From assembly GCF_019649055.1 (NCBI RefSeq), contig NW_026570328.1:372001-436000 (forward strand): 64,000 nucleotides of DNA, given 5' to 3'. The notes beneath the pieces were generated by a model. That model was given only the letters and a program-made list of their open reading frames with translations, made no database searches and had not been told where the DNA came from. Of this stretch, positions 8,501 through 42,999 are shown piece after piece; position 1 is the stretch's first letter; each line of letters starts with the position of its first letter. This stretch comes from Paramacrobiotus metropolitanus (Eukaryota > Tardigrada > Eutardigrada > Parachela > Macrobiotidae). Both the position numbers and the translations under genes were made by a program.

Positions 8501-11500
8501 TAGATTACGCCCACGCGCAACGCCGGACCGGGAATATGTGTCCGCTGCGTATATTGAGTAACCCGGCACATGACCGGAATAAGGAGTGGTCTACTCTGTG
8601 AATAAGGGAGAGCAGTAAATCGTGACCATTTTCTGATTCGTCATTACTGCGAAGCAGCCTGTACATGCGGTCCACAAGCTACAGTACACAACACTAACGG
8701 AAATTGTACTTTGTTTTCGCCGCATTTTTGTGCTAACTTTCCGCCACTTGTTGTGCACGATAAAATGCTTTTCTGATTTGAGCCACAGATTTCGAAAAAG
8801 AGATCGGTTGATTAAGTCTGCGCTTCCTTTCTGTACTATCTGGAAAATTCATCTGGATATCTCTTGCAGCATATATCACACAAATTGGTCCGCTTTGTAG
8901 TTAGTCTGGCAAAAGTTAACGTTGGCCAAGTTACGTCTGGCCAATGGTTAATGGTGATGATAACAACTTACTAAATACAATTTAACTACAAAAATATTCT
9001 CGCAATCGCGCATGTGATTATTTTGCAGTAATAACGAACAACAAAACAGAAATCGATCTGACATTTTACATGCATTGACGATGCCGAAATTGGCAGTTAG
9101 CGGTTTTCGGGAAGCTCCGGATAAGCGTTAAACACCAGAGTGATGCCCGCGTAATAACCTATCGACTAATAAGTAATCAGCTGACCAACATTTCCGGCGC
9201 TGCTAACGTGAGTAACATCGAGGCACAAATATCTGCGTCAAATTCCTTTTTTGCTTTCACTATCGATGTGGGAATCTAAAATTTGCTCTTTTATTCACTT
9301 ACCAACAGCAATGCAACAGCCACAGCACCCCGGACAAAGAATAAAAATAAAGATTTCGGTTGCCCGAAGTGATTAAGCACGGCGTGCGTCATAATTCAAA
9401 TACTAATAACTTATCAGTCAATTGATAGTTTGTACCGACGAATGCCATTGTACCGGTTTAAATATTTTTTAAAATTTTTGTGATATACGACAGTTAAAAA
9501 AATACTTGAGAACCTATACAAAAGTTGATTTGTACTAAGGACGCAGGACACTGCAAATAGTGGACAAAAAACTGACCAGTGCAGAAAATAAAAATATTCA
9601 GCATTGAGGACCTATCTCGCTCTGCACGGATCGAGTTTCCACGCGTTCCGTAGGCAAGACAATCAAAGCAAGCTTCAGCTTACGGTTACGTGCATAATTT
9701 AAAAGGGATTCTGAAATACGTATGAAGGGCTGTTTGAATAAACAAAAATATTATACTACAGCAACATGAACAGTTTTTCATATTTGAAAAAATCTCGATT
9801 AAAGGCACATACATGTACTGTTTTTTTTGTATACTATCAAAGATAGATGATTTAATGAACGTGACCTTTGCGGGTAGAAAAGTCGCTCTGACTTGATTTA
9901 CATAAACAGGACTACAGCCGGAAACGCCCATACTACGTATATAGGTATCTGTAAATATCTAATACACAACGTGCATCCCGCAATTCGTGAATCAATGTGT
10001 CGAATATCAGCAGATAATGATATCAGCAGCTTTGTGTCTGGAAGTTTTCATATCTACATCTCTGCATCCTGATGGCGACTGCTTAGCGTTCACCCCGATC
10101 ACCACAAAGCAATAACATTATGAATGTTACAAAGAAACGCGCGCCGATCAAAAGTTGCGGTTTTATCTGGCTTGTACAGCGTTCCACATTCTGATTCTCA
10201 TTACGATATCATAGGGCATTATAAAGTCATTGATAGCCATTCCATAGAAATTGTGGTATCATAAAATCAGGCAATTTGGATAAATCGTCCATGAAAATTG
10301 TGGGACACAGAAGTTTGCATTGCCCAAATGTAAATCACGACAGCCATTTCAGTCGGATTCACTGCGTTAGTCTATGGGATCTTAGCAGCCGAACAGCTGA
10401 AGCATATTCTAAGTGGATCAGATGAATCGGGAATACATGACCGAGCGACGCTTATTTTGCTCGACATTTCGACAGGGGAATAAAGCGAACTGTACAGCAT
10501 TATAATCTTTCTTTTCATTCAGCAGTAACATATTCTGCTCGATTCTTTTGACTCTTATGAGAATGGATTAATCGATGACACTTTCATTGACTTTGTTGGC
10601 GGTGTTTGTATAACAACAGCGGAATCGCATTCGGATGTAAAGGATCCTTCTTGACTCACAATCAGCCCAATATTTATCTGGATACGCAGATTAAAGATGA
10701 ACCATGCGGCACGCGACAGCGCGATGCTCGTTTGGAGGGAAGGCCACTTGCCATTTCGCCACTACACTACTGCGACACGTTGCTCCTTTATCATCGTTAA
10801 TGACCTATGATAAGCATTGTTAATAACCACTACAAGAAGTGCCGTGCATAAAAAATAATCGTGAAGTCATCTTCATAAAAGCATTATTCTATCAGCTGAT
10901 GCAGTGTACATTGTACATGTTCATGCAACCAGTGCTGGTTTGGTATGCTTTATTGGTCCATAAATGCTGTTAAGTTGTAGTATTTTCGTATTTAATTGAG
11001 CTCGCCAACTTTCTTCGGCGTAATTAGATGCAAAGTTTCGTGCTGTTTGTAAAAGAATTTCAGTAATTTATAATGCTGTAGACGAAAAACCTTTTGAAGC
11101 CTCGAAAATGGCTATGCCAAGTGTCTGCCAGATATACGAATACTGTTTTTACCAGATACTGTCTTTACCAGATATATGAATACTGTAGTTTGCTGTAGGC
11201 AAAAGCATTCCTCCTTAATGTAAGCGAATTCATTCGGACTAAGTCCGTGTAATAATTATGTCAAGCGTAAATATGTACTTGTACATGTACGCCGTAGCAA
11301 CAATTTACTGATATATATAAAGTACAACTGATATAAGTACAAAATTTTCTATGGAATCAGAACCAATTATACTAATTTTATTTCATTCAGTGTCAAGTTT
11401 ATTAGTTTTTATCTCTATTTTTTGTATTCGCTACGGACGATCGGGGCATTCAACTTTCTATTTCCTATATACTTATTTTTCACCTATTATACTATTATTA

Positions 11501-24436: not shown

Positions 24437-24442
24437 GACCTG
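24437..24442. repeat. 6-bp target-site duplication, left copy (GACCTG)
   Basis: GACCTG sits immediately before the left terminus (AGAAGAG...) of the big inverted repeat and recurs directly after the right terminus (...CTCTTCT) at 42994-42999. A 6-bp duplication is the size established for Polinton/Maverick elements. It shows the palindrome was inserted as one unit or formed from one inserted unit. Confidence 0.9.
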
Positions 24443-25516
24443 AGAAGAGTAACGGGTGATATGGAATAAAATCTATTTTACATATTTTATCTAATTTTTA
24501 TATTTATTACGTAAAATAACTATCTAACTTATATTTTATTACTACTTTTGCTCTTCTCTGAGTTAAGATTGTGTTTTAATATGAATGCTCGTGATTTGAC
24601 ATATGTCTTTTACATAGGCATCTCATTATGCGCAAGTTTGGGTGAAGATTGTGTTTTAATGATTCTCGTACACATGTTTCCTTGGCGTCTGATCTGTCAA
24701 AACATGCTCATTCCTTAATAACTCACAACACACAGTTTCTTTAGATATCTAACTGCTGGTATACTCTCATGTCGTATCCTAGGGGGTACAGATTACTTAC
24801 AAACATCTGAACATTTTGTTTCTACCTACTCATATTATTCGTACAGTTCTGCAACATACTCATTTCTAAGATACATCTGACTGTTGTATGTATGCCAGTT
24901 TCCATAAACATCTCATTGTCCGCAAGTGTGTAAGGCCCAAAACGTTTTTACAGTGCGTATCTTTCACAAACATCTGACGAGCTGCGTGCACTTTTGTTGC
25001 ACGTTATTTGTTTGATTGTGCACAATTTTCATGAACTTTGCGATTTTAGCACACGTATCGCAATTGTCATCTGTGATCTGTCAGTTTCTGTAGACATTTA
25101 ACCACGCACACGTCCATACGCTATTCTTCGTGCCTCTAAGTCTCGACATTTCTGTCGACAACTGCATTTCTATCTGAACGGGCGTCGTACAATTGCCATA
25201 TTAAACAGTACACTTGCACTGAAGACTCTAAAACCATCCATCAAACTGCATGTTCTGCCCTTTGGCAACTTAGACTACACAATTTTTCATAGGAAACTGT
25301 AAAAAAGTTGCAGTAGATGTGAAGCTGCATAGCTTATAGTAAAAGGTATTTAGCACGCTTTGTATTCCATTCTCGTCTCATTGATTGTTTTGTTCCTAAA
25401 GGTTTTCTTTTTTTGTTTTCGAGCTAAGCATTTATGTGTTAACTGGATTACTGGCCGTTACCCGCCATTTGCTATTGTTGTGCTTGCGGATTACTAATCG
25501 CAGGTAAGCAGAAACC
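24443..25516 (+). other. Terminal non-coding segment of the left arm, upstream of the polymerase
   Basis: AT-rich leader between the element terminus and the polymerase start. AAGATTGTGTTTTAAT occurs twice (near 24566 and 24647) and ACATCTGA-type words recur. It should hold the polymerase promoter and any terminal replication origin. I cannot identify either by sequence. A mirror copy occupies 41920-42993. Confidence 0.5.
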
Positions 25517-25819
25517 ATGTTTAACTTGGATGAAGTTTTGCGCTTTTATGCCGAGTTTCTGCAACAATGGTTGCATGAAAACTGGCCAGAAAAGGCAGAA
25601 GGGCTGTTTTCTCTCGATGCAATTGCCAATCTGTACGGGAAACAAAAGCTCATTCGTGAATACCGGGAAGCTAACGCCATACAGAGCGGTGGATCAAGGG
25701 ACTGGAATCCACAGACTGGACAAAGTACTTTACTCTGGAAAAGATCAACGAAAAGCAAACAAAGAAATTTTCAACATCGGAAATCACGTATCGCGTTAAA
25801 ATCGAAAACCTCAATATGA
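25517..25819 (+). pseudogene. Amino-terminal segment of the left polymerase, out of frame with the rest
   Basis: This frame begins MFNLDEVLRFYAEFL and stops at 25819. The mirror copy in the right arm reads the same beginning straight on into the polymerase domain, because it has four G where the left arm has three (25698-25700 versus 41735-41738). The natural start of the gene is therefore probably this ATG, and the left copy has a one-base loss here. Confidence 0.75.
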
Positions 25820-28800
25820 AATTCGATCCTGTCACCTCAATGGAAGCAATGCCCAAAGTGTTCGAAGCTATATTCAGTGTCATTACGAAAGAATTCGGAC
25901 CAGACGACAGAATCGTCATCCTTCTCTCCAGTCATACACTCAACCGCAAAGCTGATCTTCATATGAAAAGGTTACAAGATTTCAAGATTGACGACCTTAT
26001 GGATATGATGGTCATGATTAATTCAAGCAACTCATTCTGCATCGACGAAAGTTTTCAAATTACAATTGTTCGGACCGTAATACCGGCTGGTGGAAGAAGA
26101 AGAAAACATATCCATACTACGGTTGACCGAAAACGATTCAGCTCGTCTATTGTTACAGTGACAACAGGAAACAACCTTTGCTTACCTGCAGCATTGGCGC
26201 TCGGTCATTTCAGAAACACTCATGATGTCAGCGGCAAAGACAAGATGAAATGGAAAGCTTTAACTAATCCTAGAGGGCGTAAGTTGGAAAAACTCGCGTG
26301 TCAGTTGGTCCAAGATGCGGGTCTCACTATTGGAAAAATGTTTGGGTTGGAAGATTTGCCGGCTTTTCAACGCGTTTTAAAGTGTCAAGTCAAGGTTATT
26401 TCTGTGCAGGAAGGAAACACTCTTATCGCTCAAGTGCCGGAGAAGAAGAAACCGGGAATGAAGCAGATTTACTTAATGTACGATAAAAATCATTTCGATC
26501 TGATAACTAAACCATCTGGATACCACATGCAGAGTTATTATTGCACAAACTGCGATCAAGGATACGGCCGAAAGACAGATCATCGCTGTGAACAGAGATG
26601 CAACATGTGTTATCGCAGTAAAAGCGATTGCAAGGCCAGTGACCCAAAGTTATGCCCCGATTGTGGACGAACTTTCACCAACAAAGAGTGCTTTGATGTG
26701 CACAAGACTTTACGAAAAAATGGAAGGACGCTTTGCGAGGATCTTTTCATCTGCTCCAAGTGCAACAAGTTTGTGAATATGCTCAATCGCCCGGATCAGG
26801 TTCATAACTGTGACGAAATGTACTGCTCAACCTGCAAAGACTGGGTGCCTCAAAATTCGCATAAATGTTACTTCCAACCTCTTGAACCAGAAGAATTGGA
26901 TGCTAATCCGAAGTACATTTTCTTTGATTTCGAAACTTACACGTCGGTCGATGGTACTCACATTCCAAACTACGTCGTCGCGCAGTATTGCTGCGGAAAG
27001 GAATATCGTTTTCCTCCTGATGGTACTCCTCTAGCCGGTTATGATGTCATCGCAAACTTTTGCAAATGGCTTTTCCGTGAAGAGCATCGTGGCTACACGA
27101 TAATTGCGCACAATCTGCGAGGATACGATGGACATTTCATTTTGGCCCACATGATAGACAATAACTTGAAGCCGGACATTCTTTGCCGTGGTAGTCAGCT
27201 GCTGAATATTCGCTACAAAGCTTTGGACATGAACGCCGTGGATACGCTTAACTTTGTGCAGCTGGCTTTGTCTAAATTTCCTAAAGCGGTCGGTCTTAAA
27301 TCTGATGAGAAGAAAGGTGACTTCCCTCACAAAATTAATCAGCCGGAAAATTGGGATAAAATTATTCCCTTCCCAAACCCGTCTTCTTACGGTATCGAAG
27401 CAATGTGTGCCGCCAAGCAGGTCGAATTCTTTAAATGGTATACAGGCGAAAAAACAAGAAGCAAGGACGTTTTTGACTTTCGGCAGCAGTTAACCAGCTA
27501 CTGTTCAATGGACGTGTCAGTTTTGCGGAAATGTGCCTTAAAATTCCGAGATGATTTTATGGCTCTAGCGTGCATTGATCCCTTTAAATCCGTAACCATT
27601 GCTTCAGCTTGTTTGAAATTTTTTCGAACTTTTAATCTCCGGAAGGAAGAAATCGGAGTCATTTCAGCTCACGGTTACCAAACCAACAGAATAACCAGCA
27701 TGGAAGCAACTCAGTGGCTGACCTGGGTTAACAAAACAGAAGCTGATTGGCGAATCGAGCATGGGCGAAATGGAAAAGAGAAACGTATTAATGATTATTT
27801 TGTGGACGGCTACGATCAAGTTACCAACACGGTTTACGAATACAACGGATGCGTTTTTCATGGACATCCGGACTGCACCAACGCAAATGACCGTTCACCT
27901 TTTTCAAACAAGACTATGCAAGAAGTTTACGAAGAATACCGGATCAAAGTTTGTTCTATAAAAGCTCGGGGCTTCAACTTTGTGGAAATGTGGTCATGCC
28001 AGTGGCGCGAGCAGTTAAAAGATCCAAGCATTCGGCAGTATATGAACGATATGTCCCTCCGCAGTCCTCTTCAACCAAAAGAAGCATTTAAAGGCGGCCG
28101 TACTAACGCAAACAGGCTACTTTACGAATGCGGTCCGAATGAGAAGATCCATCACTATGATATCGTCTCTTTGTATTCTTATGTCAACAAGAATTGTGTG
28201 TATCCAATCGGGCATCCGAAAATTATAACAGCAGACTTTAAGGATATAAGCGAATATTTTGGATTTGTAAAGTGTACAGTGCTTGCGCCGGGACAGTGCT
28301 TATTTCCTGTTTTGCCTGCAACTATAAATGGAAAGTTAATCTTCGCACTCTGCAGTAAATGTGCAGAGCTTCGGCAAAACGATTTTTGCACGCATGGCGA
28401 CAAGGAGCGATTGCTGGAAGGTGTGTGGACTACTCCCGAACTGCATCATGCGATTTTACGTGGGTACAAAGTTGTTGCTGTTCATGAAGTCTGGCATTGG
28501 GAAATACGGAAAGAAAAATTGTTTGAAGACTTTGTTAACACATTCCTCAAAGAAAAAATTCAGGCAAGTGGATGGCCAAGTAACTGCACCACTGAAGCGG
28601 AACGGTTGGAGTTTGTCATAAAAGTGAAGGACGTGGAAGGTATTGAACTGGATTCCTCGCAAATCGAAGACAATCCAGGCCGAAAAGCAGTTGCAAAGTT
28701 GATGCTGAACTCATTCTGGGGCAAATTCGGACAAAATGACAATCTTCATCAGACGAAAATTTTCTTCAAGCCGAAAGATTACTATGACTTCCTCGTATCA

Positions 28801-29448
28801 AAATCTACCTGGATCCACAATGTCCATATCTTCAGTCCTGAATGTGTCATGGCAACTATTTCCAAAATCGACGACTATCTAGAAGGATCGTACACCGCCA
28901 ATATCCCTATCGCAGCCTTTACGACGAGTTATGCCCGGCTGAAACTTTTGGATATGCTTGAGAAGTTAGGTGAACGAGTACTTTATTTTGACACAGATTC
29001 CGTTATTTTTGTTCAGCGGTCAGGCGAGTGGCAGCCACCAACAGGTACGATGCTTGGAGAATGGAGCAATCAGTTAGAATCGGGAGAGAGTCATATTGTC
29101 AAGTTTATTTCTCTGGGGCCCAAAGTTTATTATTACGAAACAGATACAGGAAGGATAGAAAGTAAAATTAAAGGCTTTACTCAAAATGGATATACGGAGA
29201 ATATCCTAGCCGATTCTGGGGAAGGGCTGGTTCAAACAGGCCAGAGTATGGACTACAACCTTTGGAAATCGCTCTTGAAGAATGATGGCCAAACGGTGCG
29301 CGTTGTCTATCCCGAAACCATCAAAAGAAATGTCAACACTCATGAAATCAGCACCGTTCAACTGACGAAAACTCTCAGGCGAGTATACGATAAACGGATG
29401 CTGTTGGATGATTATAGTACTTTACCGTTTGGAACTCGCATGGAGTAA
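25816..29448 (+). CDS. Protein-primed family-B DNA polymerase, left copy (main open frame)
   Basis: Predicted replicase of the element, open for 1210 codons. A cysteine cluster (about residues 240-355: CTNC, CNMC, CPDCG, CSKC, CSTC) precedes the 3'-5' exonuclease, which has Exo I FDFET (Asp at 371), Exo II HNLRGYDGHF (Asp at 438) and Exo III YCSMD (Asp at 566). A segment with EYNGCVFHGHPDC near residue 675 matches the nuclease-like YEFxGCxxHGC block seen in Polinton and adintovirus polymerases. Polymerase motif A is DIVSLYSYV (Asp at 782), motif B is KLMLNSFWGKFG (Lys at 961) and motif C is YFDTDSV (DTD at 1059-1061). All catalytic acidic residues are present. The frame given starts at an internal Met; the likely true start at 25517 is separated by a one-base break. 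Protein priming is inferred from the family, since I could not identify the terminal protein. Confidence 0.92.
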   Translation: MKFDPVTSMEAMPKVFEAIFSVITKEFGPDDRIVILLSSHTLNRKADLHMKRLQDFKIDDLMDMMVMINSSNSFCIDESFQITIVRTVIPAGGRRRKHIHTTVDRKRFSSSIVTVTTGNNLCLPAALALGHFRNTHDVSGKDKMKWKALTNPRGRKLEKLACQLVQDAGLTIGKMFGLEDLPAFQRVLKCQVKVISVQEGNTLIAQVPEKKKPGMKQIYLMYDKNHFDLITKPSGYHMQSYYCTNCDQGYGRKTDHRCEQRCNMCYRSKSDCKASDPKLCPDCGRTFTNKECFDVHKTLRKNGRTLCEDLFICSKCNKFVNMLNRPDQVHNCDEMYCSTCKDWVPQNSHKCYFQPLEPEELDANPKYIFFDFETYTSVDGTHIPNYVVAQYCCGKEYRFPPDGTPLAGYDVIANFCKWLFREEHRGYTIIAHNLRGYDGHFILAHMIDNNLKPDILCRGSQLLNIRYKALDMNAVDTLNFVQLALSKFPKAVGLKSDEKKGDFPHKINQPENWDKIIPFPNPSSYGIEAMCAAKQVEFFKWYTGEKTRSKDVFDFRQQLTSYCSMDVSVLRKCALKFRDDFMALACIDPFKSVTIASACLKFFRTFNLRKEEIGVISAHGYQTNRITSMEATQWLTWVNKTEADWRIEHGRNGKEKRINDYFVDGYDQVTNTVYEYNGCVFHGHPDCTNANDRSPFSNKTMQEVYEEYRIKVCSIKARGFNFVEMWSCQWREQLKDPSIRQYMNDMSLRSPLQPKEAFKGGRTNANRLLYECGPNEKIHHYDIVSLYSYVNKNCVYPIGHPKIITADFKDISEYFGFVKCTVLAPGQCLFPVLPATINGKLIFALCSKCAELRQNDFCTHGDKERLLEGVWTTPELHHAILRGYKVVAVHEVWHWEIRKEKLFEDFVNTFLKEKIQASGWPSNCTTEAERLEFVIKVKDVEGIELDSSQIEDNPGRKAVAKLMLNSFWGKFGQNDNLHQTKIFFKPKDYYDFLVSKSTWIHNVHIFSPECVMATISKIDDYLEGSYTANIPIAAFTTSYARLKLLDMLEKLGERVLYFDTDSVIFVQRSGEWQPPTGTMLGEWSNQLESGESHIVKFISLGPKVYYYETDTGRIESKIKGFTQNGYTENILADSGEGLVQTGQSMDYNLWKSLLKNDGQTVRVVYPETIKRNVNTHEISTVQLTKTLRRVYDKRMLLDDYSTLPFGTRME

Positions 29449-30244
29449 GTTAGAGTGTTCTTTCTGTACTTGTACAAAAAAAAAATTCGCACTATTTTTT
29501 TTTGCCAGCTAGCGCGCCATATTCGAAGGGATGCGCAGGGACATGATGTCGTTGGAGCAAGTGTCGTAGTTTTCGATTTTGCAGTTTGTAACTGTTAGCA
29601 TATAATAGAAGCCAAAAAAAAAACATTTACATAAAAAAAGCAAAAAAAAAAGAGGGCGAATGCCCCAAATCTGTACCGGCTTTAGCTTGTCTGCGGCCAG
29701 GTTGAAATCGTTATGGCTTTGGGCTTCGTCGCTGAAACAAAAGCCGCTAGCGGTAATATTTGGTGCTGCTGTATTATGGTGTTATATAACTGCATGGAAG
29801 CAACCACAAAATATGATGAAACGGGGAGTAAATTGGCAGTGCAAGGTACTGCATCGAATATACTAGAAGAATAATGTGAGATACCAAAATCGGAAGAATG
29901 GTTAGCAAATGCGACCAGATGATGCGCGTTCCGTTCATTGAGCTTGTATTCAAATCGAAACATATGTAAAAATCTACGGAAACTCATATGAAAAACTTCC
30001 GTTTTGCAACATTTCGCTGCAAAAACTTGTAGTTTTCCGTAGTCAAAAAAAACGGAGGCTTTCGTTTTGGGATTCTCATTGACTTAACATACATTTTCGT
30101 AACTTTTAGGGAGTTTTTCGTTTTCACTTTTGGGAGTTTTTTGCTTCAGTTTCTTTGTTTTGTAAAACTTCCATTTCCGCACTAGCAAAAGAAATAAATA
30201 TATTGACTTACTTTCACGCTTTTTGAAGAACGACAATCCATCTT
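29449..30244 (+). other. Post-polymerase spacer with homopolymer runs and a weak small frame
   Basis: Downstream of the polymerase stop there are A and T runs (29477, 29492, 29618-29651), then a mirrored pair of overlapping small open frames on opposite strands (29660-29866 plus, 68 aa with a hydrophobic stretch LAVIFGAAVLWCYITAW; 29682-29987 minus, 101 aa). Both recur unchanged in the right arm, apart from the start of the 101-aa frame. I recognise neither, and their conservation only reflects the identity of the arms. Confidence 0.35.
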
Positions 30245-30246
30245 AC

Positions 30247-31013
30247 GCACATGTTCAAAGTGGCATTTCTAACTTGCATGTTTGCCGTGACATTTTCCAA
30301 CTTCGTTGCATGTTTGCCGTTACATTTCCAACTTTGTTGCATGTTTGACATGACATTTTCAACTTTCTTGCATGTTTGACGTGACGTTTCTAACTTTATT
30401 GCATGTTTGCCGTGACATTTCCAACTTTCTTGTATGTTTCACGTGACAGTTCTAACTTCCCTGCATATTTGCCGTGACATTCCTAACTTTCTTAGATGTT
30501 TCACGTGACATTTCTAACTTTGTTTCATATTTGACATGACAATCCCAACTTTCTTGCATGTTTGCCGTGACATTTCCAACTTTTCTGCATGTTTCCCGTG
30601 ACATTTCTAACTTCACTGCATGTTTGCCGTGACATTCCTAAATTTTCTGCATATTTGGCGTGACATTTCTAACTTCACTGCATGTTTGCGTTTGCCGTGA
30701 CATTTCTAACTTCACTGCATGTTTGCCGTGACATTTCTAACTTCACTGCATGTTTGCCGTGACATTCCTAAATTTTCTGCATGTTTGGCATTTCTAACTT
30801 TCGCGTTGCATTTCAACTTTGTTGCATGTTTGACGTGACATTCCCAACTTTTTTGCATATTTGCCGTGACATTCCCAACATTGTTGCATGTTTGCCGTGA
30901 AATTTCCAACTTTGTTGCATGTTTGCCATGACATTTCCAACTATGTAGCACTTGTGACGTGACATTCCCAAGTCCCTTGCATATGTGACACGACATTTTA
31001 TGCTTTCCCACAA
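30247..31013 (+). repeat. Short minisatellite, left arm (about 30-35 bp units)
   Basis: About two dozen imperfect units of the type GCATGTTTGCCGTGACATTT followed by CYAACTTTNTT. Units vary between GCCGTGAC, GACGTGAC and GACATGAC. The mirror array is at about 36400-37195 and is longer, so the arms differ in copy number here. Apparent reading frames across it are by-products of a unit length divisible by three in places. Confidence 0.9.
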
Positions 31014-31139
31014 GTCAAGTATAATATTTTTGGCTTCTTTAAATGTTTTGGTACGGCACTCTGAACTTCCAACAGGTTTAGTGTGATATGCTCAAGTTTT
31101 GCAATCGTTTCTTTTTTCGATATGAATTAAATGCATGTT

Positions 31140-32330
31140 TGGCGCAAGTCAGCTGATTACACATCAGTAGGTTACACTAATGATGGGAACGGAATGCACA
31201 CCTGGCGTCAGTTAGACGTTGGAATGCGGTGATTATCGCAAATGTAAGGGGACACCGACAGTAATCATGGGAACGGAATGCATGTTTGGCGCAAGTCAGC
31301 TAATTACACATCAGTAGGTTACACTAATGATGGGAACGGAATGCACACTTGGCGCCAGTTAGAAGTTGGAATGTGGTAATTATCGCAAATGTAAGGGGGC
31401 ACCGACAGTAATCATGGGAACGGAATGCACGTTTGGCGTCAGTCAGACAATTACACATCGTTAAGTTACACTAATGATGGGAACAGAATGCACACCTGGC
31501 GTCAGTTAGACGTTGGAATGCGGTGTTTATCGCAAATGTAAGGGGACACCGACAGTAATCATGGGAACGGAATGCATGTTTGGCGCAAGTCAGCTAATTA
31601 CACATCAGTAGGTTACACTAATGATGGGAACGGAATGCACACTTGGCGCCAGTTAGAAGTTGGAATGTGGTAATTATCGCAAATGTAAGGGGGCACCGAC
31701 AGTAATCATGGGAACGGAATGCACGTTTGGCGTCAGTCAGACAATTACACATCGTTAAGTTACACTAATGATGGGAACGGAATGCACACCTGGCGTCAGT
31801 TAGACGTTGGAATGCGGTGATTATCGCAAATGTAAGGGGACACCGACAGTAATCATGGGAACGGAATGCATGTTTGGCGTCAGTCAGATAATTACACATC
31901 GTTAAGTTACACTAATGATGGGAACGGAATGCACACCTGGCGTCAGTTAGACGTTGGAATGCGGTGATTATCGTAAATGTAAGGGGGGCACCGACAATAA
32001 ACATGAGAACGCAATGCATGTTTGGCGCAAGTCAGCTAATTATACATCAGCAGGTTACACTAATGATGGGAACGGAATGCACACCTGGCGTCAGTTAGAA
32101 GTTGGAATGTGGTAATTATCGCAGTTGTATGGTTACACCGACATTAATCATGGGAACGGAATGCATGTTTGGCGCCAGTCATATAATTGCACATCGTTAA
32201 GTTACACTAATCATGGGAACGGAATGCACACCTGGCGTCAGTTAGACGTTAGAATCTGGTAATTATCGCAAATGTAAGAAGACACCGACAGTAATCATGG
32301 AAACGGAATGCTTGTTTTGCGCAAGTCAGG
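31140..32330 (+). repeat. 147-bp tandem repeat, left arm, about eight units
   Basis: The landmark GATGGGAACGGAATGCAC starts at 31182, 31329, 31476, 31623, 31770, 31917 and 32065, giving spacings of 147, 147, 147, 147, 147 and 148 bp. A further unit starts at 32212. Each unit is itself two related halves: one begins GATGGGAACGGAATGCACAC and the other CATGGGAACGGAATGCATG, each followed by a TGGCG-C-AGT block. The mirror array is at about 35085-36275. Confidence 0.93.
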
Positions 32331-32339
32331 TGCATTCCC

Positions 32340-33060
32340 GCTCACTTTTCCTTATGCCTGATGCGACATTTTAGACTTTCTTACAAGTTTGGCGTGACAT
32401 TCTCAAGAGTTTCGAAGTTATGCTATCATGTCTGGCACCAGTGCAGGTGCACTCCCATTCTCTTGCTTATGCTTGACAAAGCTTTCTTAACTTTCTTACG
32501 TGGTCGACGCGACATTCACAACTCTCGTACATGTTTGACGTGGCACTCCCAACTTTCTTACATGATTGATTGCTTTCTTGCATGTTTGACAAGGCATTCA
32601 CCACTTTCTTGCTTTTTGACATGGCATTCTTAATAATTTTGTTATACATGACGCCAGCGTAGTTACATCCACAACTTTCCCGCATGATTGACGCGACATT
32701 CTCGGGAATTTCGTTGCTATGTCAACATCCCAGTAAAGGCATTCCCACTCACTTTTCTTTATGCCTGGCGCGTCTCCACAAGAGTGGCGCGACAGCTTGA
32801 AGTCTTTTGTCGTTATGTCAATAAGCTTGGCGTTAGTTCAGATGCATTCCCACTGTCTTTGTTATGTCTGACGCGGCATTCTCAGCTTTATCATAGGCTT
32901 GACGCAACATTAATAAATTTCTCACACGTTTTCGCGCGTTATTCTCGACTTTCTTATCACTGTGACGCGATATTCTAATCTTTATACATGTATGACTCGA
33001 CATTCTCAATTTTATCTCGTGCTGGGCACTGCAATTTCACATGTTTTGACACGACATTCA
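32340..33060 (+). repeat. Degenerate 40-50 bp repeats, left arm
   Basis: Loosely repeated phrases such as TTGACGCGACATTC, followed by an ACTTTCTTACATG-like block, run through this stretch. They resemble a decayed relative of the short minisatellite at 30247. The mirror copy lies at about 34340-35070. There is no plausible gene. Confidence 0.6.
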
Positions 33061-33318
33061 ACTTTCCAGTTTGTGCATTATGTTTCGGAAACGTTCAGGA
33101 TGATGCATACTGTGTACAACTTTGCCATTCCTGAAGCAAATTTTTTTTTTTGACCTTTCATGACCTTTTTTGCATGATGTCTGAAGTCGCAACCGATTGA
33201 GCATTTGGCACAACTTTGCATTCTCAACATTTCTACACAAAAATGTATAGGTGACCTTTCCGTGACCTTTCTGCATGGTGCCTGAAGTCGGAACCCATTG
33301 GGTATTTGGCACAACTTT

Positions 33319-33481
33319 GCATGTGAGTTAACTCTTTGTTCAAAAGGATTCAGACGTTGTCGTAATCATCCATTGCTTCCATTCAGTACTGTCGCGTTTT
33401 CAGCAGGACAGTACTGAATGGAAGCAATGGATGATTACGGCAACGTCTGAATCCTTTTGAACAAAGAGTTAACTCACATGC
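33319..33481. repeat. Perfect-looking local hairpin near the centre of the element (75-bp arms, 13-nt loop)
   Basis: 33319-33393 is the reverse complement of 33407-33481 with a single mismatch that I could see; the loop is GCGTTTTCAGCAG. It sits exactly where the left arm's match to the right arm ends. A diverged third copy of part of this sequence (GCCGTAATCATCCATTG) occurs at 33530-33546. Confidence 0.9.
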
Positions 33482-34082
33482 TTTAGTGTCAACATCTTCC
33501 TGGCCCATAGCATCGCAGACTTTGACGTTGCCGTAATCATCCATTGTTTCGATTCAGTGCTGGCCTCTCGATCTTTTTGATAATTATGACCAGAGGCAAA
33601 TTTTGAACAAAGTTCGAATTGAAAATAATAAAAAACGCAAATAATTTGGTTTGAGAGTGTTACTTTGGCTTGTTCAAGATGCAAAGTTGTACTGAATACC
33701 CCAACAAAACCGACTTCAGACATGAAAAAAAAAATTTAGGAAAGGTCGCACAAAAATTTTACTACAGGATTGTCGAGGAGGCAAAATTATACTGAATGCA
33801 CAAACAAAACCGACTTCAGACACAATGCAGAAAGGTTAAAAAAAGGTCACAAAAAAAAAAGTTCTGCATAAAAATTTTCTGGATGCAAAGTTGTACCAAT
33901 GCCTAATCGGTTGCGACTTCAGAAACCATGTTCAAAGGTCACGGAAAGGTCACCTGTGGATTTTTGTGTAGAAATGTTTAGGATGCAAAGTTGTGCCAAT
34001 TGTCCAATGGGTTCCGACTTCAGACATCATGCAGAAAGGTCACAAAAAGGTCACCTATAAATTGTGTGTAGAAAGGTTGAGG
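33482..34082. other. Asymmetric centre of the palindrome
   Basis: About 600 bp with no partner in the left arm. It contains further decayed copies of the phrase ATGCAAAGTTGT followed by a GACTTCAGAC block, i.e. more units of the 100-bp repeat that starts the right arm, and A-rich tracts. No gene is visible. Confidence 0.6.
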
Positions 34083-34255
34083 ATGCAAAGTTGTGCCAAA
34101 TACCCAATGGGTTCCGACTTCAGGCACCATGCAGAAAGGTCACGGAAAGGTCACCTATACATTTTTGTGTAGAAATGTTGAGGATGCAAAGTTGTGCCAA
34201 ATGCTCAATCGGTTGCGACTTCAGACATCATGCAAAAAGGGTCATGAAAGGTCAA
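33890..34255 (+). repeat. About 100-bp tandem repeat at the inner end of the right arm
   Basis: Units beginning GCAAAGTTGTGCCAA start near 33895, 33987, 34085 and 34186, each followed by GACTTCAGA and paired AAAGGTCAC words. The left arm has only about two reverse-complement units (about 33150-33320), so units have been lost on that side or gained on this one. Paired GGTCAC/GGTCA words resemble nuclear-receptor half sites, but in a repeat this is probably coincidence. Confidence 0.8.
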
Positions 34256-35084
34256 AAAAAAAAATTTGCTACAGGAATGGCAAAGTTGTACACAGTATGC
34301 ATCATCATGAACGTTTCCAAAACATAATGCACAAACTGGAAAGTTGAATGTCGTGGCAAAACATGTGAAATTGCAGTGCCCAGCACGAGATAAAATTGAG
34401 AATGTCGAGTCATACATGTATAAAGATTAGAATATCGCGTCACAGTGATAAGAAAGTCGAGAATAACGCGCGAAAACGTGTGAGAAATTTATTAATGTTG
34501 CGTCAAGCCTATGATAAAGCTGAGAATGCCGCGTCAGACATAACAAAGACAGTGGGAATGCATCTGAACTAACGCCAAGCTTATTGACATAACGACAAAA
34601 GACTTCAAGCTGTCGCGCCACTCTTGTGGAGACGCGCCAGGCATAAAGAAAAGTGAGTGGGAATGCCTTTACTGGGATGTTGACATAGCAACGAAATTCC
34701 CGAGAATGTCGCGTCAATCATGCGGGAAAGTTGTGGATGTAACTACGCTGGCGTCATGTATAACAAAATTATTAAGAATGCCATGTCAAAAGCAAGAAAG
34801 TGGTGAATGCCTTGTCAAACATGCAAGAAAGCAATCAATCATGTAAGAAAGTTGGGAGTGCCACGTCAAACATGTACGAGAGTTGTGAATGTCGCGTCGA
34901 CCACGTAAGAAAGTTAAGAAAGCTTTGTCAAGCATAAGCAAGAGAATGGGAGTGCACCTGCACTGGTGCCAGACATGATAGCATAACTTCGAAACTCTTG
35001 AGAATGTCACGCCAAACTTGTAAGAAAGTCTAAAATGTCGCATCAGGCATAAGGAAAAGTGAGCGGAATGCACCTGACTTGCGC

Positions 35085-36275
35085 AAAACAAGCATTCCGT
35101 TTCCATGATTACTGTCGGTGTCTTCTTACATTTGCGATAATTACCAGATTCTAACGTCTAACTGACGCCAGGTGTGCATTCCGTTCCCATGATTAGTGTA
35201 ACTTAACGATGTGCAATTATATGACTGGCGCCAAACATGCATTCCGTTCCCATGATTAATGTCGGTGTAACCATACAACTGCGATAATTACCACATTCCA
35301 ACTTCTAACTGACGCCAGGTGTGCATTCCGTTCCCATCATTAGTGTAACCTGCTGATGTATAATTAGCTGACTTGCGCCAAACATGCATTGCGTTCTCAT
35401 GTTTATTGTCGGTGCCCCCCTTACATTTACGATAATCACCGCATTCCAACGTCTAACTGACGCCAGGTGTGCATTCCGTTCCCATCATTAGTGTAACTTA
35501 ACGATGTGTAATTATCTGACTGACGCCAACCGTGCATTCCGTTCCCATGATTACTGTCGGTGTCCCCTTACATTTGCGATAATCACCGCATTCCAACGTC
35601 TAACTGACGCCAGGTGTGCATTCCGTTCCCATCATTAGTGTAACTTAACGATGTGTAATTGTCTGACTGACGCCAACCGTGCATTCCGTTCCCATGATTA
35701 CTGTCGGTGCCCCCCTTACATTTGCGATAATTACCACATTCCAACTTCTAACTGGCGCCAAGTGTGCATTCCGTTCCCATCATTAGTGTAACCTACTGAT
35801 GTGTAATTAGCTGACTTGCGCCAAACATGCATTCCGTTCCCATGATTACTGTCGGTGTCCCCTTACATTTGCGATAAACACCGCATTCCAACGTCTAACT
35901 GACGCCAGGTGTGCATTCTGTTCCCATCATTAGTGTAACTTAACGATGTGTAATTGTCTGACTGACGCCAAACGTGCATTCCGTTCCCATGATTACTGTC
36001 GGTGCCCCCTTACATTTGCGATAATTACCACATTCCAACTTCTAACTGGCGCCAGTGTGCATTCCGTTCCCATCATTAGTGTAACCTACTGATGTGTAAT
36101 TAGCTGACTTGCGCCAAACATGCATTCCGTTCCCATGATTACTGTCGGTGTCCCCTTACATTTGCGATAATCACCGCATTCCAACGTCTAACTGACGCCA
36201 GGTGTGCATTCCGTTCCCATCATTAGTGTAACCTACTGATGTGTAATCAGCTGACTTGCGCCAAACATGCATTTA
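35085..36275 (-). repeat. 147-bp tandem repeat, right arm
   Basis: Reverse-complement copy of the left array, with the landmark GTGCATTCCGTTCCCATCAT. A few units differ from their mirror partners by single bases or by a 1-bp loss (for example GGCGCCAGTGTGC near 36050). Confidence 0.9.
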
Positions 36276-36399
36276 ATTCATATCGAAAAAAGAAACGATT
36301 GCAAAACTTGAGCATATCACACTAAACCTGTTGGAAGTTCAGAGTGCCGTACCAAAACATTTAAAGAAGCCAAAAATATTATACTTGACTTGTGGGAAA

Positions 36400-37195
36400 G
36401 CATAAAATGTCGTGTCACATATGCAAGGGACTTGGGAATGTCACGTCACAAGTGCTACATAGTTGGAAATGTCATGCCAAACATGCAACAAAGTTGGAAA
36501 TATCACGGCAAACATGCAACAATGTTGGAAATGTAACGGTAAACATGCAAGAAAGTTGGGATTGTCATGTCAAATATGCAACAAAAGTTAGAAATGCAAC
36601 GCCAAACATGCAGAAAATTTGGGAATGTCACGCCAAACATGCAGAAAATTTAGGAATGTCACGGCAAACATGCAGTGAAGTTAGAAATGTCACGGCAAAC
36701 ATGCAGTGAAGTTAGAAATGTCACGCCAAACATGCAGAAAATTTAGGAATGTCACGGCAAACATGCAGTGAAGTTAGAAATGTCACGCCAAACATGCAGA
36801 AAATTTAGGAATGTCACGGCAAACATGCAGTGAAGTTAGAAATGTCACGGGAAACATGCAGAAAAGTTGGAAATGTCACGGCAAACATGCAAGAAAGTTG
36901 GGATTGTCATGTCAAATATGAAACAAAGTTAGAAATGTCACGTGAAACATCTAAGAAAGTTAGGAATGTCACGGCAAATATGCAGGGAAGTTAGAACTGT
37001 CACGTGAAACATACAAGAAAGTTGGAAATGTCACGGCAAACATGCAATAAAGTTGAAACGTCACGTCAAACATGCAAGAAAGTTGAAAATGTCATGTCAA
37101 ACATGCAACAAAGTTGGAAATGTAACGGCAAACATGCAACGAAGTTGGAAAATGTCACGGCAAACATGCAAGTTAGAAATGTCACTTTGAACATG
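36400..37195 (-). repeat. Short minisatellite, right arm
   Basis: Reverse-complement copy of the left short minisatellite, about 30 bp longer. The units ATGTCACGGCAAACATGCAG and the AGAAAATTTAGGA variant alternate in an order that does not match the left arm exactly, as expected of unit gain and loss. Confidence 0.85.
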
Positions 37196-37995
37196 TGCGT
37201 AAGATGGATTGTCGTTCTTCAAAAAGCGTGAAAGTAAGTCAATATATTTATTTCTTTGCTAGTGCGGAAATGGAAGTTTTACAAAACAAAGAAACTGAAG
37301 CAAAAAACTCCCAAAAGTGAAAACGAAAAACTCCCTAAAAGTTACGAAAATGTATGTTAAGTCAATGAGAATCCCAAAACGAAAGCCTCCGTTTTTTTTG
37401 ACTACGGAAAACTACAAGTTTTTGCAGCGAAATGTTGCAAAACGGAAGTTTTTCATATGAGTTTCCCGTAGATTTTTACATATGTTTCGATTTGAATACA
37501 AGCTCAATGAACGGAACGCGCATCATCTGGTCGCATTTGCTAACCATTCTTCCGATTTTGGTATCTCACATTATTCTTCTAGTATATTCGATGCAGTACC
37601 TTGCACTGCCAATTTACTCCCCGTTTCATCATATTTTGTGGTTGCTTCCATGCAGTTATATAACACCATAATACAGCAGCACCAAATATTACCGCTAGCG
37701 GCTTTTGTTTCAGCGACGAAGCCCAAAGCCATAACGATTTCAACCTGGCCGCAGACAAGCTAAAGCCGGTACAGATTTGGGGCATTCGCCCTCTTTTTTT
37801 TTGCTTTTTTTATGTAAATGTTTTTTTTTTGGCTTCCTATTATATGCTAACAGTTACAAACTGCAAAATCGAAAACTACGACACTTGCTCCAACGACATC
37901 ATGTCCCTGCGCATCCCTTCGAATATGGCGCGCTAGCTGGCAAAAAAAAATAGTGCGAATTTTTTTTTGTACAAGTACAGAAAGAACACTCTAAC

Positions 37996-40900
37996 TTACT
38001 CCATGCGAGTTCCAAACGGTAAAGTACTATAATCATCCAACAGCATCCGTTTATCGTATACTCGCCTGAGAGTTTTCGTCAGTTGAACGGTGCTGATTTC
38101 ATGAGTGTTGACATTTCTTTTGATGGTTTCGGGATAGACAACGCGCACCGTTTGGCCATCATTCTTCAAGAGCGATTTCCAAAGGTTGTAGTCCATACTC
38201 TGGCCTGTTTGAACCAGCCCTTCCCCAGAATCGGCTAGGATATTCTCCGTATATCCATTTTGAGTAAAGCCTTTAATTTTACTTTCTATCCTTCCTGTAT
38301 CTGTTTCGTAATAATAAACTTTGGGCCCCAGAGAAATAAACTTGACAATATGACTCTCTCCCGATTCTAACTGATTGCTCCATTCTCCAAGCATCGTACC
38401 TGTTGGTGGCTGCCACTCGCCTGACCGCTGAACAAAAATAACGGAATCTGTGTCAAAATAAAGTACTCGTTCACCTAACTTCTCAAGCATATCCAAAAGT
38501 TTCAGCCGGGCATAACTCGTCGTAAAGGCTGCGATAGGGATATTGGCGGTGTACGATCCTTCTAGATAGTCGTCGATTTTGGAAATAGTTGCCATGACAC
38601 ATTCAGGACTGAAGATATGGACATTGTGGATCCAGGTAGATTTTGATACGAGGAAGTCATAGTAATCTTTCGGCTTGAAGAAAATTTTCGTCTGATGAAG
38701 ATTGTCATTTTGTCCGAATTTGCCCCAGAATGAGTTCAGCATCAACTTTGCAACTGCTTTTCGGCCTGGATTGTCTTCGATTTGCGAGGAATCCAGTTCA
38801 ATACCCTCCACGTCCTTCACTTTTATGACAAACTCCAACCGTTCCGCTTCAGTGGTGCAGTTACTTGGCCATCCACTTGCCTGAATTTTTTCTTTGAGGA
38901 ATGTGTTAACAAAGTCTTCAAACAATTTTTCTTTCCGTATTTCCCAATGCCAGACTTCATGAACAGCAACAACTTTGTACCCACGTAAAATCGCATGATG
39001 CAGTTCGGGAGTAGTCCACACACCTTCCAGCAATCGCTCCTTGTCGCCATGCGTGCAAAAATCGTTTTGCCGAAGCTCTGCACATTTACTGCAGAGTGCG
39101 AAGATTAACTTTCCATTTATAGTTGCAGGCAAAACAGGAAATAAGCACTGTCCCGGCGCAAGCACTGTACACTTTACAAATCCAAAATATTCGCTTATAT
39201 CCTTAAAGTCTGCTGTTATAATTTTCGGATGCCCGATTGGATACACACAATTCTTGTTGACATAAGAATACAAAGAGACGATATCATAGTGATGGATCTT
39301 CTCATTCGGACCGCATTCGTAAAGTAGCCTGTTTGCGTTAGTACGGCCGCCTTTAAATGCTTCTTTTGGTTGAAGAGGACTGCGGAGGGACATATCGTTC
39401 ATATACTGCCGAATGCTTGGATCTTTTAACTGCTCGCGCCACTGGCATGACCACATTTCCACAAAGTTGTTTTTATAGAACAAACTTTGATCCGGTATTC
39501 TTCGTAAACTTCTTGCATAGTCTTGTTTGAAAAAGGTGAACGGTCATTTGCGTTGGTGCAGTCCGGATGTCCATGAAAAACGCATCCGTTGTATTCGTAA
39601 ACCGTGTTGGTAACTTGATCGTAGCCGTCCACAAAATAATCATTAATACGTTTCTCTTTTCCATTTCGCCCATGCTCGATTCGCCAATCAGCTTCTGTTT
39701 TGTTAACCCAGGTCAGCCACTGAGTTGCTTCCATGCTGGTTATTCTGTTGGTTTGGTAACCGTGAGCTGAAATGACTCCTGATTTCTTCCTTCCGGAGAT
39801 TAAAAGTTCGAAAAATTTCAAACAAGCTGAAGCAATGGTTACGGATTTAAAGGGATCAATGCACGCTAGAGCCATAAAATCATCTCGGAATTTTAAGGCA
39901 CATTTCCGCAAAACTGACACGTCCATTGAACAGTAGCTGGTTAACTGCTGCCGAAAGTCAAAACGTCCTTGCTTCTTGTTTTTTCGCCTGTATACCATTT
40001 AAAGAATTCGACCTGCTTGGCGGCACACATTGCTTCGATACCGTAAGAAGACGGGTTTGGGAAGGGAATAATTTTATCCCAATTTTCCGGCTGATTAATT
40101 TTGTGAGGGAAGTCACCTTTCTTCTCATCAGATTTAAGACCGACCGCTTTAGGAAATTTAGACAAAGCCAGCTGCACAAAGTTAAGCGTATCCACGGCGT
40201 TCATGTCCAAAGCTTTGTAGCGAATATTCAGCAGCTGACTACCACGGCAAAGAATGTCCGGCTTCAAGTTATTGTCTATCATGTGGGCCAAAATGAAATG
40301 TCCATCGTATCCTCGCAGATTGTGCGCAATTATCGTGTAGCCACGATGCTCTTCACGGAAAAGCCATTTGCAAAAGTTTGCGATGACATCATAACCGGCT
40401 AGAGGAGTACCATCAGGAGGAAAACGATATTCCTTTCCGCAGCAATACTGCGCGACGACGTAGTTTGGAATGTGAGTACCATCGACCGACGTGTAAGTTT
40501 CGAAATCAAAGAAAATGTACTTCGGATTAGCATCCAATTCTTCTGGTTCAAGAGGTTGGAAGTAACATTTATGCGAATTTTGAGGCACCCAGTCTTTGCA
40601 GGTTGAGCAGTACATTTCGTCACAGTTATGAACCTGATCCGGGCGATTGAGCATATTCACAAACTTGTTGCACTTGGAGCAGATGAAAAGATCCTCGCAA
40701 AGCGTCCTTCCATTTTTTCGTAAAGTCTTGTGCACATCAAAGCACTCTTTGTTGGTGAAAGTTCGTCCACAATCGGGGCATAACTTTGGGTCACTGGCCT
40801 TGCAATCGCTTTTACTGCGATAACACATGTTGCATCTCTGTTCACAGCGATGATCTGTCTTTCGGCCGTATCCTTGATCGCAGTTTGTGCAATAATAACT

Positions 40901-41919
40901 CTGCATGTGGTATCCAGATGGTTTAGTTATCAGATCGAAATGATTTTTATCGTACATTAAGTAAATCTGCTTCATTCCCGGTTTCTTCTTCTCCGGCACT
41001 TGAGCGATAAGAGTGTTTCCTTCCTGCACAGAAATAACCTTGACTTGACACTTTAAAACGCGTTGAAAAGCCGGCAAATCTTCCAACCCAAACATTTTTC
41101 CAATAGTGAGACCCGCATCTTGGACCAACTGACACGCGAGTTTTTTTCCAACTTACGCCCTCTAGGATTAGTTAAAGCTTTCCATTTCATCTTGTCTTTG
41201 CCGCTGACATCATGAGTGTTTCTGAAATGACCGAGCGCCAATGCTGCAGGTAAGCAAAGGTTGTTTCCTGTTGTCACTGTAACAATAGACGAGCTGAATC
41301 GTTTTCGGTCAACCGTAGTATGGATATGTTTTCTTCTTCTTCCACCAGCCGGTATTACGGTCCGAACAATTGTAATTTGAAAACTTTCGTCGATGCAGAA
41401 TGAGTTGCTTGAATTAATCATGACCATCATATCCATAAGGTCGTCAATCTTGAAATCTTGTAACCTTTTCATATGAAGATCAGCTTTGCGGTTGAGTGTA
41501 TGACTGGAGAGAAGGATGACGATTCTGTCGTCTGGTCCGAATTCTTTCGTAATGACACTGAATATAGCTTCGAACACTTTGGGCATTGCTTCCATTGAGG
41601 TGACAGGATCGAATTTCATATTGAGGTTTTCGATTTTAACGCGATACGTGATTTCCGATGTTGAAAATTTCTTTGTTTGCTTTTCGTTGATCTTTTCCAG
41701 AGTAAAGTACTTTGTCCAGTCTGTGGATTCCAGTCCCCTTGATCCACCGCTCTGTATGGCGTTAGCTTCCCGGTATTCACGAATGAGCTTTTGTTTCCCG
41801 TACAGATTGGCAATTGCATCGAGAGAAAACAGCCCTTCTGCCTTTTCTGGCCAGTTTTCATGCAACCATTGTTGCAGAAACTCGGCATAAAAGCGCAAAA
41901 CTTCATCCAAGTTAAACAT
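37996..41919 (-). pseudogene. Protein-primed family-B DNA polymerase, right copy, broken by small indels
   Basis: Mirror copy of the left polymerase. It is open from its ATG at 41919 through the amino-terminal region, then breaks at a seven-T run (41141-41147; the left copy has five A). Further differences are four A for five T (39960-39963 versus 27470-27474), a locally compensated pair near 39780 and 39811-39815, and a 10-bp loss near 39464-39479. The last 490 or so residues, with motifs A, B and C, are open and match the left copy. All but the 10-bp loss and the one-base insertion near 39780 fall in homopolymers. As assembled it cannot make a full enzyme. The pattern leaves open whether the breaks exist in the genome. 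Confidence 0.88.
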
Positions 41920-42993
41920 GGTTTCTGCTTACCTGCGATTAGTAATCCGCAAGCACAACAATAGCAAATGGCGGGTAACGGCCAGTAATCCAGTTAACAC
42001 ATAAATGCTTAGCTCGAAAACAAAAAAAGAAAACCTTTAGGAACAAAACAATCAATGAGACGAGAATGGAATACAAAGCGTGCTAAATACCTTTTACTAT
42101 AAGCTATGCAGCTTCACATCTACTGCAACTTTTTTACAGTTTCCTATGAAAAATTGTGTAGTCTAAGTTGCCAAAGGGCAGAACATGCAGTTTGATGGAT
42201 GGTTTTAGAGTCTTCAGTGCAAGTGTACTGTTTAATATGGCAATTGTACGACGCCCGTTCAGATAGAAATGCAGTTGTCGACAGAAATGTCGAGACTTAG
42301 AGGCACGAAGAATAGCGTATGGACGTGTGCGTGGTTAAATGTCTACAGAAACTGACAGATCACAGATGACAATTGCGATACGTGTGCTAAAATCGCAAAG
42401 TTCATGAAAATTGTGCACAATCAAACAAATAACGTGCAACAAAAGTGCACGCAGCTCGTCAGATGTTTGTGAAAGATACGCACTGTAAAAACGTTTTGGG
42501 CCTTACACACTTGCGGACAATGAGATGTTTATGGAAACTGGCATACATACAACAGTCAGATGTATCTTAGAAATGAGTATGTTGCAGAACTGTACGAATA
42601 ATATGAGTAGGTAGAAACAAAATGTTCAGATGTTTGTAAGTAATCTGTACCCCCTAGGATACGACATGAGAGTATACCAGCAGTTAGATATCTAAAGAAA
42701 CTGTGTGTTGTGAGTTATTAAGGAATGAGCATGTTTTGACAGATCAGACGCCAAGGAAACATGTGTACGAGAATCATTAAAACACAATCTTCACCCAAAC
42801 TTGCGCATAATGAGATGCCTATGTAAAAGACATATGTCAAATCACGAGCATTCATATTAAAACACAATCTTAACTCAGAGAAGAGCAAAAGTAGTAATAA
42901 AATATAAGTTAGATAGTTATTTTACGTAATAAATATAAAAATTAGATAAAATATGTAAAATAGATTTTATTCCATATCACCCGTTACTCTTCT

Positions 42994-42999
42994 GACCTG
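42994..42999. repeat. 6-bp target-site duplication, right copy (GACCTG)
   Basis: Direct repeat of 24437-24442, immediately after the right terminus. The sequence from here rightward is the original upstream flank of Rab11. Confidence 0.9.

Follow-up and report, generated by a model that had tools for sequence, protein, structure and literature searches.

A palindromic element derived from a Polinton-type element in the tardigrade Paramacrobiotus metropolitanus

The genome of the tardigrade Paramacrobiotus metropolitanus (assembly GCF_019649055.1) contains an element of 18,551 bp which is a single inverted repeat with a polymerase gene copy in each arm. It is found at positions 24,443-42,993 of the window, by which we mean the whole stretch of 64,000 nt analysed here (contig NW_026570328.1, positions 372,001 to 436,000, or C108:372,001-436,000 in our numbering of contigs). 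It probably derives from a reduced Polinton-type element as a mobile, self-complementary (snapback) form, that is, a fold-back product whose reintegration relies on an integrase provided in trans. The genome searched comprises 170 Mb in 533 contigs. The structures at every locus are described as assembled, from the assembly sequence.

The mirrored anatomy is established at this level. In a self-BLAST comparison, positions 24,443-33,322 pair with 42,993-34,083; the alignment spans 8,930 columns, is 98.925% identical and contains 27 mismatches as well as 27 gap openings, which gives arms of 8,880 and 8,911 bp. This inverted match reaches 15,895 bits, while the best one in five first-order Markov resamples of the window reaches 41 bits. 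The original prediction of a palindrome which covers practically the whole element, with 8.9 kb per arm, is thus confirmed. The clean insertion it described is also found. The termini are AGAAGAG...CTCTTCT, the AG...CT ends of a Polinton/Maverick terminal inverted repeat, here 8.9 kb long, and GACCTG is a perfect 6 bp target duplication, exact at both ends, next to flank bases which differ. The flanks lie outside the inverted repeat. The centre is not plain unique sequence: it contains a 163 bp hairpin and most of a 101 bp tandem array. Coordinates are given in Table 1.

The open reading frame at 25,816-29,448, in the left arm, matches the Pfam family DNA_pol_B_2 (E = 7.7e-47), in agreement with the Polinton-type polymerase proposed for this element. 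It codes for a family B DNA polymerase, whose fold resembles that of phi29 polymerase. One polymerase gene per arm had been predicted; a copy is present in both arms, but only the left one is open. The right copy is split across several frames by small indels, and the gene is intact in one arm only of C108. Residues 659-733 of the protein (P0001), between the exonuclease and polymerase parts, form a conserved segment (VDG...EYNGCVFHG) which matches phrog_22677, of unknown function, and may be an inserted domain. A sequence search of PDB gives only four weak matches, three zinc-finger chains and BipA, and no relative of the element has been found in a viral contig collection.

A search of the genome for family B polymerases gave 955 candidates, of which 38 have been scored. 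Among these, matches with 89-100% identity are found on contigs C108, C16, C6, C159, C36, C130 and C62; the remaining matches, short fragments aside, are 43-58% identical. The further palindromic copies which the original prediction suggested looking for do exist: C16 contains a second complete palindrome, with its own 6 bp duplication (GGTGAG), and C6 contains a third one, whose right arm is truncated and ends at arm position 2,383. There are three insertions, two of them with complete 6 bp duplications. The centre in C6 is 99% identical to that in C108, in reverse orientation. We considered an internal flip of this centre and rejected it, the orientation reflects an insertion in the opposite direction. 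In the genome search, the inner arm and the centre have matches at C108, C16 and C6 only. No non-palindromic relative containing them has been found, therefore the fold point in the parent cannot be placed. Our impression is that, among the polymerase families in the 38 scored matches, the palindromic form is limited to this lineage.

Other members of the lineage are not palindromic. Elements in C36, C130 and C159 have a size of 18-21 kb, 6 bp duplications, a polymerase at one end and a gene coding for a Pro-rich RING-finger protein at the other. C62 contains a copy with a single polymerase, but the sequence read stops short of its far end. Besides GACCTG, the target duplications are GGTGAG, ACTGGT and GTTGGC at three other copies and GTCGCT at C159, where three extra bases are found between the right terminus and the duplication; this reading leaves out C6 and C62, where the far end is truncated or lies beyond the sequence read. 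The C130 element has been read in overlapping pieces, that of C36 without its middle and that of C159 in part. These relatives do not support the original description of the palindrome as a dimer of a 9 kb genome: no single-arm copy of that size has been found, and the nearest non-palindromic relatives are twice as long, with different genes at their ends. Because of this arrangement, the element is better described as a reduced Polinton-type element of which the polymerase half has been mirrored.

The elements at C130:298,951-317,145 and C36:744,435-764,605 are 99.4-99.7% identical over the ends compared. They are found at unlinked sites with different duplications, which points to recent transposition. 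The element in C159 (C159:112,845-133,791) is a recombinant: a terminus of the palindrome type and its first 2.4 kb, which differ by 0.1-0.2% from C108 and C6, are fused with a C130/C36-type polymerase, and the rest of this gene is about 9% different. The ratio of nonsynonymous to synonymous substitution rates (dN/dS) between the C108 polymerase and its relatives is 0.11 for C159, 0.10 for C130, 0.10 for C36 and 0.14 for C62. The polymerase lineage is under purifying selection, and these values suggest that the enzyme was probably in use through most of its history. As regards other sequences in these elements, the only match of the RING-finger gene in a protein search is LOC129599994 of the same species, on C159. 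No further convincing gene has been found in the C130 pieces, and among ten open reading frames of the single-polymerase elements Pfam gives two matches under the curated cut-off, neither of them convincing. A subterminal repeat is present twice at the RING end of the C130 and C36 elements. The flank to the left of the C36 element contains a DDE_3-like frame (L045:2-736, E = 0.0022, below the cut-off).

A comparison of the six arms of the three palindromes shows how they have evolved. Over the roughly 3.0 kb of the polymerase part, the two arms of an element are 6, 6 and 7 substitutions apart in the three insertions, while arms of different elements are 10-21 apart. This divergence is about 0.2%, the copies look young. 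When the six arms are paired in the 15 possible ways, pairing by element gives the smallest summed distance (6.25e-3, the next being 10.2e-3), although the separation of C108 and C6 comes partly from a poly-A-rich stretch and that part should be discounted. Informative sites have been counted in arm positions 2,383-5,000 and 7,888-8,748, with gapped columns removed: 69 of the 71 sites group the arms by element, 68 for C16 and 1 for C6. The inner arm is the decisive part, with 64 informative sites. Here C16 is about 8% different from C108 and C6, yet its two arms are only 0.3% apart, and divergence within elements is below 1%. Arm-to-arm copying is established for the C16 lineage as compared with C108/C6. 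Moreover, both C16 arms shift along their length from less than 0.7% to about 8% divergence with respect to C108, a shared pattern which indicates that a recombinant arm served as template for the opposite one. Other parts are less regular: in the outer arm there are 0 differences in C108 and 13 in C16, in the inner arm 6, 2 and 3.

The axis is also informative. C16 is self-complementary through the centre, with an inverted self-match at 789,963-791,366 (76%, 1,535 columns, 79 gap openings) and a loop of about 36 nt, identified by eye; a gap-free symmetry scan missed this axis. C108 and C6 have in common a tighter hairpin, with most of the 101 bp array on one side. The genome search gives no matches to the centre outside C6 and C16. 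There may have been two fold-back events, or a single one followed by rearrangement near the axis.

Polymerases of the phi29 type, which are protein-primed and strand-displacing, leave long single strands. This suggests how the palindrome might have formed. The parent line would be an element of about 20 kb, whose two ends carry a polymerase of the protein-primed type and the RING-finger gene, respectively. While it replicates by strand displacement, either the growing strand or the displaced one would fold back near the middle of the element, at a short inverted repeat, and would be copied up to its own start. This would mirror the polymerase half and discard the RING half, giving a product which has the same polymerase end twice and would replicate with the polymerase from one of its arms; replication through the folded single strand would rewrite one arm from the other. 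It would re-enter the chromosome as a unit, with 6 bp duplications, the integrase presumably coming in trans from fuller Polintons elsewhere in the genome. In this scheme we infer the folding of the strand, its priming by a protein, the rewriting of arms in every cycle and the existence of a helper integrase. As for the fold-back origin given in the original prediction, the head-to-head structure is of the expected type, but the evidence does not favour a hairpin end over an internal fold-back.

The genes which usually accompany a Polinton polymerase are not found in the palindrome. It has no frame of at least 150 amino acids besides the polymerase copies and the frames opposite them, although a gene split into short exons could escape this count. 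No additional frame of this size is available as a capsid candidate, in a count made without a search of capsid models. None of the listed matches to the rve integrase family is inside the palindrome (150 of 1,154 candidates scored), and no integrase frame has been found in the parts read of the single-polymerase relatives. The one listed rve match about 15 kb from a polymerase, in C25, was considered as a Polinton integrase and rejected, as by eye it looks like a Gypsy-type integrase. The listed matches to an adenovirus-type protease are inside none of the seven loci of this lineage; one is found 4.9 kb past the end of the C62 copy. None of the 14 weak Pox_A32-type matches to the packaging ATPase falls in elements of the lineage. 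As protease, integrase, ATPase and capsid genes have not been found inside it, we regard the element as a Polinton derivative and do not class it as a Polinton.

Possible helpers may be present elsewhere, and the genome seems rich in Polinton-type elements. A protease match is found at 15 kb or less from 23 of the 26 other polymerase loci, and the protease frame beside the C146 polymerase has at least 151 matches (150 of 348 candidates scored). The protease label comes from PF00770 matches in 4 of 68 relatives and a match of a sister frame below the PF00770 cut-off; the C146 query frame itself has no PF00770 match. Elements with both polymerase and protease are likely to be fuller Polintons, none of which has been read complete. 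A frame with a BIR (inhibitor-of-apoptosis) domain adjoins the polymerase in C50 (L005:1008-1463, E = 1.1e-8); C84 has another (L007:1128-1427), with a match that falls below the cut-off. These elements may thus carry genes against apoptosis.

Several results weigh against a snapback origin. The genome search has found neither a 9 kb single-arm element nor a parent with a single-copy inner arm and centre. The polymerase gene is frame-broken or cut in five of the six arms of the three palindromes, as assembled. A Polinton integrase has not been identified in the genome, where the rve matches scored are mostly retrotransposon-like, and the helper is an assumption, no complete Polinton having been read. 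In the arm comparison, two of the 71 informative sites join the left arm of C108 to C16. C108 and C6 are barely resolved, without any separating informative site in 2,383-5,000. Two homopolymer indels pair the left arm of C108 with the right arm of C6 and vice versa, as if arm identity had outlived transposition; one of them is a frameshift present in four of the six arms. In the outer 2,382 bp, the right arm of C16 is 2 substitutions from C108 but 13 from the left arm of C16. Over the outer 2.4 kb it is this left arm that stands apart, and nine of its private changes are clustered at arm positions 201-557, which would be either a conversion tract or an assembly error. Finally, chromosomal gene conversion could be the cause of the likeness between arms.

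The alternative which survives best is a variant of the snapback origin and does not exclude it. The palindromes may have formed independently at least twice, once for the C16 type and once for the C108/C6 type, from different parents folding back, with a later exchange of the outer polymerase part. We consider this possible, on the doubtful side. The inner arms are 8% apart between types and nearly identical within each element, the axis points and loops differ, and the outer parts are nearly identical. On the other hand, the 101 bp array, the arm order and the axis-proximal unit are common to all three palindromes, which fits a single origin and later rearrangement.

A second alternative, which we consider rather unlikely, is that the palindrome arose once by another route, such as end-to-end joining of two element copies or inverted duplication of a circle, and spread as a transposon whose arms were kept alike by chromosomal gene conversion. 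The grouping of arms by element fits any kind of arm-to-arm copying, and the patchy left outer arm of C16 and the differing array lengths may be due to local conversion or slippage. Nevertheless, the divergence between arms in the polymerase part is alike in the three insertions, though it varies elsewhere. C16 is also self-complementary nearly to its axis, with its loop of about 36 nt, as expected of a fold-back and not of joined complete copies.

An assembly artefact, through a fold-back read with a missed adapter or through the collapse of a repeat, is unlikely, because palindromes are also found at two other sites, the one in C16 with a separate 6 bp duplication and the one in C6 truncated; we give it a very low probability. 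Nine of the 11 single-base indels between arms which precede the poly-A/T-rich stretch are in homopolymers, which suggests uncorrected long-read error. Nevertheless, a fold-back read would mirror the flank too, while the C108 flanks differ and carry the same hexamer, as do those of C16 with another hexamer, and the difference between the inner arms of C16 and C108/C6 far exceeds that within elements. Two adjoining head-to-head insertions, or an inverted duplication in place after insertion, would account for the proper terminus which starts each arm, but this is hardly credible and already contradicted by the single 6 bp duplication which brackets the whole palindrome and by the same centre at two unlinked sites.

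The snapback derivation is the explanation we favour. The features of the C108 element and the RING-finger genes of its relatives are collected in Table 1. The open reading frames around the element have matches to kelch, BTB, sulfate-permease and CBM21 families.

Table 1. Features of the palindromic element (positions in the window) and RING-finger genes of the non-palindromic relatives.
Feature	Position	Strand	Evidence or remark
6 bp target-site duplication, left copy GACCTG	24437..24442	.	sequence of both ends
Left arm, 8,880 bp	24443..33322	+	self-BLAST, 98.9% to right arm
Terminal AGAAGAG	24443..24449	+	subterminal arm 23-112 is 89-90% identical to RING-gene end of C36, C130, C159
phi29-like family B DNA polymerase, 1,210 aa, open	25816..29448	+	stop-to-stop frame from 25,675
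31 bp tandem arrays, left arm	30274..30998	+	tandem repeats
147 bp tandem array, 8.2 copies, left arm	31130..32329	+	tandem repeats
Near-perfect axis hairpin, 163 bp, 93% self-complementary, axis ~33,400	33319..33481	.	
Centre between mirrored arms	33323..34082	.	99% in C6 (reverse orientation), 90% over part and rearranged in C16
101 bp tandem array	~33810..34254	+	mostly right of axis; <2 copies left (33,151-33,322); both sides in C16
Right arm, 8,911 bp	34083..42993	-	self-BLAST
147 bp tandem array, right arm	35074..36273	-	tandem repeats
31 bp tandem array, right arm	36432..37172	-	tandem repeats
Right-arm polymerase gene copy, broken frame (small indels)	37996..41619	-	
6 bp target-site duplication, right copy GACCTG	42994..42999	.	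sequence of both ends
RING-finger gene	L045:2005-3102 (C36); C130:299,778-300,962; C159:131,333-132,537		protein search

Similar structures are found in several known systems. Foldback/Galileo elements of Drosophila are DNA transposons whose inverted repeats are likewise very long and contain many tandem arrays, but they lack a polymerase gene and use a different transposase class. Inverted dimers of adenovirus-like or linear-plasmid DNA are fold-back palindromes which depend on a helper. The copyback defective genomes of RNA viruses, as they are described, also arise by fold-back in replication initiated at a terminus, and the resulting palindrome is helper-dependent. Unlike our element, copyback genomes and inverted dimers are not integrated transposons. 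With Polinton/Maverick elements (polintoviruses) it shares a family B polymerase of the protein-primed type near one end, AG...CT termini and a 6 bp target duplication; it differs from them in that the inverted repeat is practically the whole element and the polymerase copies are the only genes found. Vertebrate Mavericks are described with 6 bp duplications and (AG)3//(CT)3 end motifs (PMC8097293). In adeno-associated virus (AAV), the 5' and 3' snapback genomes (SBG) are described as mirrored halves of a linear genome with one kind of terminus, in symmetric and asymmetric forms, which replicate with Rep and adenovirus helper functions (PMC8235507). Our element likewise has a mirrored polymerase half with identical termini, and may be a product of this kind. 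AAV snapback subgenomes are particle genomes of a parvovirus, while here we have a nuclear-genome family with its own target duplications and with the polymerase in the mirrored half. In origin-dependent inverted-repeat amplification (ODIRA) of yeast, when replication goes wrong at a short, interrupted inverted repeat, a self-complementary intermediate results, and then an inverted dimer able to integrate; as described there, it concerns segments of host chromosomes and homologous recombination, whereas 6 bp target duplications are found here (PMC4689423). In short, the element is a derivative of a Polinton-type element which would function as a snapback genome does. We have found no palindromic Polinton in the literature, in a search of titles and the openings of abstracts which does not establish its absence from print.

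The extrachromosomal replication of Polintons has been deduced from their polymerase and, to our knowledge, replication intermediates have not been observed directly so far. A single-stranded, protein-primed route has been suggested (PMC4061559). The palindromes described here may form a stably palindromic lineage of Polinton-derived satellites, snapback parasites of fuller Polintons: as a single strand, the entire genome would be one hairpin, with one kind of replication end, second-strand synthesis by self-folding and rewriting of one arm from the other in each cycle. This further step is tentative, the case for it being nearly balanced. If it is true, replication intermediates of Polintons would have left a chromosomal record in these insertions. 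A palindromic derivative which retains only the polymerase half, occurs at three sites and shows copying between its arms would be an independent line of genomic evidence that replication starts at the ends, displaces strands and can fold back, and that integration takes place in trans. The polymerase genes face inwards, so that a transcript reading through both of them would give a long hairpin RNA, a possible trigger of RNA silencing. Snapback genomes, known as viral by-products, would become a heritable type of transposon.
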